A DNA stretch of 64,000 bases from Sedimentitalea xiamensis (GTDB taxonomy: Bacteria; Pseudomonadota; Alphaproteobacteria; Rhodobacterales; Rhodobacteraceae), in the NCBI RefSeq assembly GCF_030164465.1, contig NZ_JASNJE010000011.1:1-64000 (forward strand). Direction: 5' to 3'. Below are positions 4,841-8,103 of this stretch, one piece after another. The number at the start of each line of letters is the position of its first letter. Positions within the stretch are counted from its first letter, which is position 1. The notes under the pieces were generated by a model. That model saw only the letters and a list, made by a program, of their open reading frames with translations. It did no database searches and was not told the origin of the DNA. Position numbers and translations under genes: made by a program.

Positions 4841-6268
4841 TCAGAGGATCGGGCCGATCGTGGCGACCGCGTTGTTCCACATGCGCCGGTGGATTGGCCA
4901 GGCGTTCACCTCGTCGATGCGGACACGCGATGACTGGCCGATGTAGTCGTCCTGCCGCGCCATGATCTGACGCGTCAGATCCGCGTCGCAGAGCAGCAGG
5001 TTGCTTTCGTAGTTGAGGTCGAAACTGCGCAGGTCGAGATTGGACGAGCCGACGAAACTGATCAGCCCGTCGATGGTCATGGTCTTGGCATGCAGCAGCC
5101 CGCCTTCGAATTCGTGGATCGCGACCCCCGCCGCCAGCAGCCGCCGGTAGGAGGAGCGGCTTGCCGCCGCGACGATCTTGGAATCATTGACCCGCGGCAG
5201 GACCATGACGACATCGACACCCCGGTAGGCGGCGGCGCAGATCGATTCGACCACGATGGCGTCGGGTACGAAATACGGGGTGGTGATGGTGACGCTGCGT
5301 TCGGCTGAATTCATCAGGGCGGAAAACAGGTGCGGCGTCGCCAGCCGCCGTTCGGTGGGACCGTCGCCCATGATCTGCGCCACGATTCCGGGTTTCTGCG
5401 GTTCGGCATGGACCGGGAAGTCCTGCAGCGTTCCGCCGCAATGGGCGATCCAGTCGCTGGCGAACAGGAGCTGGTTCTGCGCCACCACCGGCCCGGTGAC
5501 GCGCAGCATGATGTCGATCCACGGGCCGTATTTTTCCTTGACCCGGAATTCCGGGTCGGCGCAGTTCTGGCTGCCGCAATAGGTGATTTCGCCGTCGACG
5601 ATGGTGATCTTGCGGTGATTGCGCAGGTCGATGCGGCTTTTCAGCACCGTCATCACCGGGTTGCCGATGGGCAGCGCCACCGCGACCCGGACGCCGGCGG
5701 CCTCCATCTCCTTCCAGAGCGGCGAGCGGACGAATTTGCGCGAGCCCAGCCCGTCGGCCATGACGCGGCAGGTCACGCCGCGCTGCGCCGCCCGGATCAG
5801 CGCCCGTGCGGTGTTGGTGCCGGTCTCGTCGTCCAGCCAGATGTAATAGAGCACGTTCACGTGATGGCGCGCGGCGTCGATGTCGGCGATCAGCCGGGCG
5901 CGGGCGCTGGCGGCGTCGGGCATCAGTTCCACCGCGTTGCCGGGCAGGGCCGGAAAGCCGTTGATCGATTCGCTGTAGGCAAAGGCCGACCGGTATCGTT
6001 CGGGCACCGCCGGCAGCGCGTCGGGGACGGCCGGGACGAGGTCCTGCTTGTGGCTCTGGATCTGCCGGGCGACGGCGGCGATGCGGCCGCTGGCGGAATA
6101 GCCGAGGTTGGCTTCGCCGAAGAGGAAATAGATGATGACGCCGGAATAGGGCAGCAGGCCGATGACCACGATCCAGGCCAGACGGCTGGTGGCGGCGAGT
6201 TCGTCGCGCAGCAGCACCCGGACCATCAGTCCGAGAACGATCAGGATATGTATCGCCAGCAGGATCAT
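4841..6268 (-). CDS. cls: Cardiolipin synthase (phospholipase D family)
   Basis: A 475-residue membrane phospholipase D-type cardiolipin synthase, joining two phosphatidylglycerol molecules into cardiolipin at the inner membrane. Two N-terminal hydrophobic segments (about residues 1-18 and 30-51) are followed by two PLD catalytic motifs, HRKITIVDG near 218 and HAKTMTIDG near 393, each HxKxxxxD. The frame stays open 38 codons further upstream, but the ATG at 6266-6268 puts the hydrophobic segment at the N-terminus and gives the usual length; GGAGG lies about 14 bases before it. The gene is downstream of the DUF1127 gene and its small RNAs on the same strand, so it could receive read-through from that stress promoter. 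Confidence 0.9.
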   Translation of the reverse strand: MILLAIHILIVLGLMVRVLLRDELAATSRLAWIVVIGLLPYSGVIIYFLFGEANLGYSASGRIAAVARQIQSHKQDLVPAVPDALPAVPERYRSAFAYSESINGFPALPGNAVELMPDAASARARLIADIDAARHHVNVLYYIWLDDETGTNTARALIRAAQRGVTCRVMADGLGSRKFVRSPLWKEMEAAGVRVAVALPIGNPVMTVLKSRIDLRNHRKITIVDGEITYCGSQNCADPEFRVKEKYGPWIDIMLRVTGPVVAQNQLLFASDWIAHCGGTLQDFPVHAEPQKPGIVAQIMGDGPTERRLATPHLFSALMNSAERSVTITTPYFVPDAIVVESICAAAYRGVDVVMVLPRVNDSKIVAAASRSSYRRLLAAGVAIHEFEGGLLHAKTMTIDGLISFVGSSNLDLRSFDLNYESNLLLCDADLTRQIMARQDDYIGQSSRVRIDEVNAWPIHRRMWNNAVATIGPIL

Positions 6269-6371
6269 CTGGTTCGCTTGCGCCTCCGGCCGCGGGCCCG
6301 TTCCGCGCAGCAAAGACCATTTGGCGATTGCAGGCAACAGCCGGAACGGTTGCGTCGGAGGAGGGACGGAA

Positions 6372-6447
6372 AACGGCGACACCAGGGAGGAGGAGAGGTG
6401 TCGCCGTTCTCTTCAAACACCGGGCGCAGGGAGGAGGAGAGCGCCCG
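6372..6447 (-). ncRNA. Cuckoo/CcsR-family small RNA, distal unit (two hairpins)
   Basis: Two perfect hairpins whose 13-nt loops are identical. One has a 12-bp stem at 6372-6383/6397-6408 with its loop at 6384-6396; the other has a 7-bp stem at 6421-6427/6441-6447 with its loop at 6428-6440. Read on the minus strand, each loop is TCTCCTCCTCCCT, an exposed anti-Shine-Dalgarno-like CCUCCUCCC motif. This two-hairpin form and its place downstream of a DUF1127 gene match the Cuckoo RNA family (CcsR RNAs of Rhodobacter sphaeroides). The promoter-distal hairpin is followed on the minus strand by four Ts, so it may also act as the terminator. Confidence 0.8.
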
Positions 6448-6459
6448 ATGCATCCGAAC

Positions 6460-6475
6460 CCGGTCCTTGGACCGG
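6460..6475. repeat. Short perfect palindrome between the two small-RNA units
   Basis: CCGGTCC at 6460-6466 and GGACCGG at 6469-6475 form a 16-bp palindrome in the 37-nt linker between the two Cuckoo units. It could be a processing signal separating the two RNAs from a shared precursor, or simply a stem in the linker. Its role is inferred from position only. Confidence 0.35.
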
Positions 6476-6484
6476 TATAAAAGG

Positions 6485-6557
6485 GCGGCGACATCAGGGA
6501 GGAGGAGAGATGTCGCCGCTAGGACAGGCCATCCAGGGAGGAGGAGAGGAGGACCTG
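6485..6557 (-). ncRNA. Cuckoo/CcsR-family small RNA, proximal unit (two hairpins)
   Basis: Two hairpins separated by 5 nt, each presenting the same 13-nt loop as the distal unit. The first stem is 11 bp and perfect (6485-6495/6509-6519, loop 6496-6508). The second is 10 bp with one mismatch and one G-U pair (6525-6534/6548-6557, loop 6535-6547). Stem sequences differ between copies while loops are invariant, which is what selection on an exposed CCUCCUCCC loop would leave. It begins 28 nt after the stop of the DUF1127 gene on the minus strand, so co-transcription and processing from that mRNA are likely. Confidence 0.8.
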
Positions 6558-6585
6558 ATCTTGTCTGTGTCGTGCGCTGAGCCGG

Positions 6586-6795
6586 TCAGCAGATGTCGTA
6601 TGCGGCCTGGTAGGCAACGCGTGGCAGCATGGTCGGGGTCAGCCCCAGATCGGCAAGCTGGCACGGGTCCAGTTCCGAAAGTTCCTTCAACGTCTTCCGA
6701 TACAGCCGATGGCGGGCGAACCGGGATTTCACCTCGGCCAGCCAGCCGCCGGACAGCGGGCGGTCGTTCGTGCCGGCGAGGCTGTAACTGGCCAT
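6586..6795 (-). CDS. DUF1127 small protein (CcaF1-like)
   Basis: A 69-residue protein with a C-terminal DUF1127 helix pair: the arginine-rich RHRLYRKTLKEL stretch followed by LDPCQLADLGLTP. DUF1127 proteins of this size occur widely in Alphaproteobacteria; the R. sphaeroides homologue CcaF1 is an RNA-binding protein that influences maturation of the CcsR RNAs encoded just after it. The same order is seen here, with the two small-RNA units starting 28 nt past the stop. In R. sphaeroides this locus is under the heat-shock sigma factors RpoHI/RpoHII; similar control here is inferred, not shown. Confidence 0.8.
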   Translation of the reverse strand: MASYSLAGTNDRPLSGGWLAEVKSRFARHRLYRKTLKELSELDPCQLADLGLTPTMLPRVAYQAAYDIC

Positions 6796-6850
6796 AATCG
6801 TTAACCTTCGTGTTTTCCTGCGGCGCCTGTTAGCGCCCTAACTTGTCTCT

Positions 6851-6878
6851 AAGATAGCCGAATGCTGCAGTTGCACAA
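6851..6878 (-). promoter_or_regulatory. Candidate promoter of the DUF1127-small RNA operon
   Basis: On the minus strand TTGTGC (plus 6873-6878) and TATCTT (plus 6851-6856) are separated by 16 bp and lie 56 bp upstream of the DUF1127 start. They fit a sigma-70/sigma-32-type promoter. Which sigma factor uses it cannot be decided by eye. Confidence 0.4.
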
Positions 6879-7032
6879 TAGGGTGGGGAAACAATGCTGC
6901 CATGCAGCATCCGCATGGGTGAAATGGCGTTTTTTCGGGCGAACGGGCAAAAACAGGGCGGGGGCCGGTCGCCATTTGCGCGGCCTTGCCTTAGGACGCT
7001 GCGTAAAGCGGCGGGATGCGAAGGAGAACGGC

Positions 7033-8103
7033 ATGGGCGTGACACGGGAACAGATCGAAACCTGCCTTCAGCGGCTCGTCCTGCCGGATGGCGGCGACCT
7101 CGTGGGGCGGGACATGATTCGCGCGCTGTCGGTCGAGAACGGCGCGGTGCGCTTCGTGATCGAGGCTCCGTCGCCCGCGATCGCGCAGCAGATGGAGCCG
7201 CTGCGCCGCGCCGCCGAGGCCGCGGTGGCGGCGCTGGACGGGGTGACATCGGTCAGCGTGGCGCTGACCGCCCATGGCCCGGCGGCGAAACCGGCGGCGC
7301 CGGGCCTGAAGATCGGCGGCCATCCGAAACCGCAGGACGGGCCGGTGCGCCCCGGCGGGGTCGACCGCATCCTCGCCATCGCTTCCGGCAAGGGCGGGGT
7401 CGGCAAATCCACCGTGGCGTCGAACCTGGCCGTGGCCCTGGCGCGGGCCGGGCGCAGGGTGGGGCTGCTGGACGCCGACATATACGGACCCAGCCAGCCG
7501 CGGATGATGGGCGTCTCCGGGCGGCCGGAATCGCCGGACGGCAAGACGATCATCCCGCTGCACGCCCATGGCGTGACCCTGATGTCGATCGGCTTCATGG
7601 TCGAGGAAGGCAAGGCGGTGGTCTGGCGCGGCCCGATGCTGATGGGGGCGTTGCAGCAGATGCTGGGGCAGGTCGACTGGGGCCGGCTCGACGTGCTGAT
7701 CGTCGACCTGCCGCCGGGCACCGGGGACGTGCAGCTGACGCTTTGCACCAAGTCGCAGCTGACCGGGGCCATCGTCGTCAGCACGCCGCAGGACGTGGCG
7801 CTGATCGACGCGCGCAAGGCGCTGGACATGTTCGCGACGCTGAAGACCCCGGTGCTGGGGCTGATCGAGAACATGTCGATGTTCGTCTGCCCCGATTGCG
7901 GGAGCAGCCACCGCATCTTCGGGCAGGGCGGGGTGGCCGCCGAGGCAGACCGGCTGGGGGTTCCGCTTCTGGGCACGCTTCCGATCGACCTCGATACCCG
8001 GATCGCCGGGGATGAAGGCACCCCGGTCGCGGCGGGGGATGGGCCGATGGCGCAATCCTATGCGCAGATCGCGGACCGGCTGATCCGGGGCGGGGTGGCC
8101 TGA
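7033..8103 (+). CDS. apbC: Iron-sulfur cluster carrier ATPase Mrp/ApbC
   Basis: A 356-residue P-loop protein of the Mrp/Nbp35 family that carries and delivers [4Fe-4S] clusters to apo-proteins in the cytoplasm. An N-terminal DUF59 (MIP18-like) domain covers about residues 5-80. The deviant Walker [11 protein letters not shown] is at 118-127 and DLPPGTGD at 225-232. The cluster-bridging CPDC pair is at 286-289. The ATG at 7033 is preceded by AAGGAG at the right spacing, so the longer open frame upstream is not used. It reads away from the DUF1127 gene with 237 bp between the two starts. Confidence 0.93.

Follow-up and report, generated by a model that had tools for sequence, protein, structure and literature searches.

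Paired PhaR-like palindromes at the promoter of a CIN1-type DUF1127/Cuckoo RNA locus suggest a link between stress riboregulation and carbon storage in Rhodobacteraceae

The closest described system is the ccaF1-CcsR1-4 operon of R. sphaeroides (Rfam CcsR1, RF02791), in which CcsR1-4 share one transcript with the DUF1127 gene ccaF1, made from an RpoHI/HII promoter and cut by RNase E (PMC10253847, PMC8625941, PMC8307010; these and all other papers are cited here from excerpts). According to the same sources, CcsR-like RNAs also lie beside DUF1127 in other Alphaproteobacteria, an arrangement called the "CIN1 locus". In R. sphaeroides the CcsR RNAs target flhR (PMC8307010), and RpoHI/HII promoters carry a -35 TTG and a -12 TAT (PMC10673084, figure legend). 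The loop motif has been described in rhizobia as well (PMC3927594, section 2.7), and rhizobial NfeR1 / alpha-r14 (Rfam ar14, RF02344) carries identical CCUCCUCCC anti-Shine-Dalgarno (anti-SD) loops on differing stems, such loops silencing mRNAs redundantly (PMC10746234). A precedent of another kind is the S. meliloti repressor PhaR (AniA), for which mmgR, an sRNA gene, is a bound and repressed target, i.e. a PhaR site is located at an sRNA promoter (PMC12542648).

The window, i.e. the whole 64,000-nt stretch of Sedimentitalea xiamensis DNA that was analysed, contains a locus that is, judged by its features, of the known CcaF1-CcsR / Cuckoo "CIN1" type. A small DUF1127 gene for a CcaF1-like protein of 69 aa (6586..6795, minus strand; Pfam PF06568, 37.8 bits, cut-off 23.3; no NCBIfam match) lies directly upstream, on the same strand, of units of two hairpins with unpaired CCUCCUCCC loops in the predicted fold. 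The loop motif CTCCTCCTCCCT occurs exactly four times in the window, always on the minus strand (6384, 6428, 6496 and 6535), and with one mismatch allowed none of 100 dinucleotide shuffles gave four matches; in the whole genome (4.75 Mb) these four are the only exact copies of the 12-letter core, and one mismatch adds 11 places. When 6365-6585 of the minus strand is folded, each of the four hairpins leaves the 13-nt loop UCUCCUCCUCCCU unpaired in the minimum-energy fold, whose energy of -102 kcal/mol was matched by none of 200 shuffles (-69.8 +/- 4.4 kcal/mol; z -7.3). According to this fold, unit 1 consists of hairpin 1 (6525..6557, loop 6535-6547), which has the weakest stem by duplex energy, and hairpin 2 (6485..6519), and unit 2 of hairpin 3 (6417..6451) and hairpin 4 (6369..6411), the T-rich end of the latter making it a likely terminator; all are on the minus strand. 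Motif count, fold and Pfam match thus confirm what a first-pass annotation had proposed, namely that four minus-strand hairpins sharing one 13-nt loop follow a DUF1127 gene. Its description of the stems as unrelated was partly wrong, as the stems of hairpins 2 and 4 are almost alike (CGGCGACATC / CGGCGACACC). The palindrome that it noted in the linker between the units is real (16 nt, a predicted minus-strand hairpin at 6460..6475), and what the genus retains at this place, as judged by eye, is no more than a short and variable hairpin.

Both units align over their full length with the Rfam CcsR1 model (6562-6480, including hairpin 2, 52.3 bits, E-value 2.6e-12; 6454-6368, including hairpin 4, 42.0 bits, E-value 2.9e-9), the E-values coming from a 261-base search at an E-value threshold. 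Both scores lie under the gathering score of 65.3, the curation threshold at which Rfam gives nothing in the window, i.e. the covariance-model check that had been proposed gives full-length alignments short of the curated cut-off. The earlier assignment of a DUF1127 gene with two Cuckoo/CcsR units is supported, and the order matches the published CcaF1-CcsR1-4 (PMC10253847). The upstream DUF1127 gene, the two-hairpin units, the CCUCCUCCC loops and an RpoH-like promoter are common to both systems, whereas there are two units here and four in R. sphaeroides, and the Rfam score here is below the gathering score. A PhaR-like double operator, discussed below, is a feature of the locus here for which the excerpts on the R. 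sphaeroides operon have no mention. The Rfam ar14 model likewise aligns below its cut-off (50.1 against 58.8 bits); NfeR1 / alpha-r14 differs in having three hairpins and regulation by LsrB and NtrC in S. meliloti, and the excerpts of PMC10746234 describe no DUF1127 operon for it.

The locus is present in five of five genomes of the genus, with two units in four of them and three in one, each of the four stems is similar to its counterpart in the other genus genomes, and the second hairpins of the units have a CGGCG-type stem in common. At L042 (genome G151) the third Cuckoo unit is almost identical to the second, linker included, which indicates a recent tandem duplication. The two-loop pattern occurs in 106 of 149 genomes of the family, a reversed control giving far fewer matches. 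Genome G039 has identical or near-identical single Cuckoo pairs outside its main array (C16:6324, C17:202 and C62:106022 (L029)), perhaps carried on a repeated element.

Upstream of the DUF1127 gene the minus strand carries a proposed RpoHI/HII-type promoter (6854..6878), in which TTG (6878-6876) and TAT (6856-6854) lie 22 nt apart, start to start. It is accompanied by two palindromes: site 1 (TGCTGCATGGCAGCA, 6895..6909, minus strand) is of the form CTGCN3GCAG and a proposed PhaR operator, and site 2 (TTGTGCAACTGCAGCA, 6863..6878, minus strand), the proposed second operator, runs from the TTG of the -35 element into the spacer. These paired palindromes, flanking and overlapping the RpoH-like promoter, had no place in the first-pass annotation and are the new part of this analysis; their letters suggest a connection to carbon storage. 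The connection to stress would come from analogy and from the RpoHI/HII-like promoter with its -35 TTG and -12 TAT. In 71 named promoters, among the matches listed, the TAT place reads TAT in 29, CCA in 19 and otherwise in 23, and because these letters vary, we infer the sigma factor rather than read it from the promoter.

Ahead of DUF1127, sequence conservation within the genus is good, and the stretch holds site 1 (TGCTGCATRGCAGCA) and site 2 (TTGTGCANNYGCAGCA), or close variants. A wider sample comprised 51 arrays in 46 genomes, chosen by the hairpin pattern alone and including the window, 40 of them with DUF1127 upstream. Site 2 lies upstream of 45 of the 51 arrays, five of which are without DUF1127. 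In all 40 arrays with DUF1127, site 2 agrees at no fewer than 13 of its 14 letters (exactly in 38), and in 36 of them site 1 agrees at no fewer than 10 of its 12. When the strongest palindrome of each promoter was compared with shuffles, allowing both spacers, 32 of these 40 promoters were equalled by at most two of 100. The 11 arrays without DUF1127 have an exact site 2 upstream in five cases and not in six. The arrays L017, L054, L055, L061 and L067 lie right under site 2, with no DUF1127 gene found in between.

Scanning named GTDB genomes with the operator pattern only gave at least 117 stretches, 80 of which became loci, four of them identical in DNA to loci already in the sample of 51 hairpin-pattern arrays. 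Among the matches listed, a DUF1127 frame, recognised by a profile built from the 40 DUF1127-bearing arrays of the hairpin-pattern sample, starts within 260 nt downstream in 71 of the 80 loci, at least two loop motifs lie within 2.2 kb in 60, and the gap within the double operator is 13 or 14 nt in 75. The nine loci without DUF1127 comprise four under titles of other phyla that look like chance (L188, L190, L200, L221), one cut by a contig end (L193) and four with loop motifs directly downstream of the double operator (L179, L208, L209, L242), the sequence of L208 ending after 157 nt. At L204 (Roseobacter sp. LH_M50), counted among the 71, two tandem double operators lie 223 nt apart, the first preceding a single stand-alone Cuckoo unit and the second a DUF1127 locus. 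In a sample across the Alphaproteobacteria the strict double operator was found in two of 387 genomes, both of this family, and four of five other family genomes sampled were without it. This, like the six arrays that have neither DUF1127 nor site 2, speaks against the PhaR reading set out below.

The best explanation, to which we give a probability of about 0.7, is that the locus is a CIN1 operon with an RpoH-type promoter and two PhaR operators, from which PHB titrates the repressor PhaR off. A single transcript from the RpoH-type promoter would comprise the CcaF1-like DUF1127 gene and the two CcsR/Cuckoo units; the units would be cut out as small RNAs, and their anti-SD loops would cover ribosome binding sites of target mRNAs, both steps being assumed because of what R. 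sphaeroides CcsR and rhizobial NfeR1 do. PhaR, which binds PHB granules, would have one operator upstream of the -35 element and one over the -35 element and the spacer, and a repressor on site 2 would exclude polymerase. With little PHB stored, PhaR would occupy both sites and the RNAs would be low; once PHB accumulates, the granules would draw PhaR off and RpoH could fire the operon. What the sequences show directly is the anatomy of the locus, how far it is conserved, and that palindromes of similar form are present at PHB genes; that PhaR binds and represses, that RpoH is used and what the RNAs do is inferred.

The binding sequence that PMC12542648 cites for R. sphaeroides PhaR is CTGCNNNGCAG, and for B. 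diazoefficiens PhaR the site is TGCRNYGCASMA (PMC6201568); site 1 has the CTGCN3GCAG form cited for R. sphaeroides. The host genome encodes one PhaR (PF07879, E 1.3e-27; TIGR01848, 145.3 bits, cut-off 109.45), whose gene clusters with phaC and phaZ, both over cut-off, and with a phasin gene (Pfam Phasin_2, just over cut-off). The phaP gene of the host is preceded by a site that shares the 12 fixed letters of site 1 (TGCTGCN3GCAGCA), and the exact site-1 pattern is found at six places in total, four of them, besides CIN1 and phaP, without a recognised PHB link. In S. meliloti, phaP1 and phaP2 each have two PhaR sites flanking the -35 element, and the PhaR site of mmgR, TTGTGCACCGCAGCA, is close to site 2 of the window (PMC12542648). 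The MmgR system differs in that it concerns another sRNA and a single site with a 3-nt spacer, in a rhizobium outside the Rhodobacteraceae.

Genomes that lack PhaR provide a natural test. PF07879 matches 144 of the 149 family genomes, once in each. Genome G003, rated 100% complete and in one contig, has no match; its CIN1 locus (L293) retains apbC, DUF1127 and three exact loop motifs, and TTG and TAT stand as far apart as in the window, yet within 260 nt no site 2 does better than 9 of 14 letters (8 of 14 where the promoter lies) and no site 1 better than 8 of 12. Thus, a genome without a PhaR match has lost both sites and kept the CIN1 locus, although this is a single case. G098 has no PhaR match and keeps both sites; as its assembly is 84% complete, phaR may lie in the part that was not assembled. 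G033 and G136, also without a PhaR match, have DUF1127 genes with no loop motifs beside them, and G090, the same in this respect, has no DUF1127 match in its genome.

Among the alternatives, the one that survives best, though we consider it unlikely, is that the palindromes at CIN1 promoters bind another transcription factor with a PhaR-like site. It draws on a systematic departure from the form seen at phaP. In the 19 of 21 pha regions in which phaP was found, each has two palindromes with a 3-nt spacer, 26-30 nt apart, and their centre is RNY in 38 of 38 (19 genomes, by eye), in line with published rhizobial PhaR sites, which are mostly TGC-RNY-GCA with a 3-nt spacer (PMC6201568, PMC12542648). 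The 36 scored site-1 copies at CIN1 have 18 ATA, 15 ATG, one AGG and two ATT centres, i.e. 34 of 36 have ATA, ATG or AGG, and site 2 has a 4-nt spacer, all of which speaks against a plain PhaR site. At the window locus itself the TGC-RNY-GCA form is absent, the centre of site 1 being ATG and the spacer of site 2 being 4 nt, and membership in the PhaR regulon is therefore proposed, not established.

The intergenic region of phaC and phaZ bridges this gap between CIN1-type and phaP-type sites, since the same departures occur there, and this weighs against another factor. From 24 regions tried, 21 gave both genes, and three of these (L153-155), chosen for their site 2, were left aside. Nine of the other 18 have, at the equivalent position (judged by eye), a palindrome with a 3-nt spacer that fits at least 10 of 12 letters, with centres such as TAT, TAC and CAT, which, again by eye, are the CIN1 kind on the other strand and not the phaP kind; three of the 18 have a palindrome with a 4-nt spacer at 9 letters or more, and the remainder are weaker or without one. 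Orthologous regions thus have 3-nt spacers in some genera and 4-nt spacers in others. In another genus, the phaC/phaZ region L135 has the letters of site 1 of the window as reverse complement.

Outside CIN1, 30 places with an exact copy of site 2 were examined: seven upstream of a malyl-CoA-lyase-like gene, three in phaC/phaZ regions, which had been picked for nearness to phaR, one upstream of a thiolase gene (TIGR01930 over cut-off, PhaA model below cut-off) and 19 with no recognised PHB gene nearby. The last favour another factor; the thiolase gene argues against it, as do the decay of the sites in G003 and the single PF07879 match in each of the 144 genomes, i.e. no paralogue of the PhaR family was seen there. 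The malyl-CoA-lyase-like gene, which we take to be mcl1, belongs to the HpcH/HpaI family (Pfam), with dgcN divergent in six of seven cases (DgcN over cut-off in L142), and its site 2 suggests the same regulator as at CIN1. These seven places are in seven genera (L142, at C23:40211 of the host genome, L091, L097, L110, L111, L166 and L168). At L143 (C66:61443 of the host genome) an exact site 2 lies a few bases upstream of the start of a DusB-like gene (182 bits over a 158-aa piece).

The preferred reading, a PhaR-controlled operon of trans-acting RNAs, also has to be weighed against the idea that the hairpins are only 3' UTR structures of the DUF1127 mRNA, i.e. terminators or stability elements with no action in trans. 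The terminator-like last hairpin and the conservation in the genus of the second stem of each unit would fit this idea, which we nonetheless find very improbable, as arrays exist without DUF1127, the CcsR RNAs of R. sphaeroides target flhR (PMC8307010), and the loop is kept while the stems vary. Stem pairing was judged by duplex energies in place of a fixed register, after removal of four duplicate loci: in 103 distinct arrays the arms of 648 hairpins pair with their own partners at a mean of -20.5 kcal/mol and at -11.0 kcal/mol when swapped, and own arms are better than every within-array swap in 477 of 647 hairpins. Hence stems vary in these arrays, and pairing and loop are kept. In a fixed register the pairing signal is weak (mean 5.2 of 8 versus 4.3), probably because loop sizes vary.

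A still slighter chance attaches to the view that the palindromes regulate the divergent apbC/Mrp gene for a P-loop ATPase (7033..8103, plus strand; Pfam PF10609, start codon by homology) and not the RNA operon. Such a gene is indeed divergent within 500 nt at 47 of the 62 loci whose upstream DNA extends 900 nt or more, but the other 15 (12 without an apbC match, three with apbC about 1.3 kb off) all keep the palindromes, each of the tandem operators of L204 precedes a Cuckoo RNA, and site 2 overlaps the promoter that faces DUF1127, and apbC was rejected as target of the operator. Equally faint is the proposal of the first-pass annotation that two stress-induced Cuckoo RNAs are coupled to the lipids of the membrane by way of the cardiolipin synthase gene next to them, cls (4841..6268, minus strand; TIGR04265, 333.6 bits, cut-off 290; the listed ORF begins at 6382, and the ATG at 6268 fits relatives better), which we reject as a feature of the family, since cls follows the locus in five of five genus genomes but in one of six other loci tried and, among the matches listed, in none of the 49 named loci that have DUF1127 and extend 1500 nt or more downstream, so that this neighbour is a local one, and since the terminator-like hairpin 4 stands between the RNAs and cls.

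Returning to the PhaR operators, their meaning for the family can be put as one joint reading, to which we give slightly better than even odds. Accordingly worded, the Cuckoo/CcsR RNAs of Rhodobacteraceae would belong to the PhaR regulon, PHB granules would license the RpoH promoter by titrating PhaR, and the RNAs would be made only under stress that coincides with stored carbon; the anti-SD RNAs would act on carbon metabolism, and the operator would follow the RNAs even where DUF1127 is absent. A link between PhaR and Cuckoo RNAs is not stated in the titles and abstract openings found by a keyword search, a search with subscription papers mostly outside its range, so that it may be noted elsewhere, and it is not stated in the excerpts of PMC9230146, PMC4344238, PMC11354728 and PMC5107571. 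The type of small-RNA operon, in which hairpin RNAs able to block ribosome binding sites follow the gene of a small protein, is known, and the comparison of promoters suggests that the paired PhaR-like sites are what is new. If this reading is true, a conserved operator like that of PHB genes would connect riboregulation under stress with the storage of carbon, in a family that is both large and of ecological importance.
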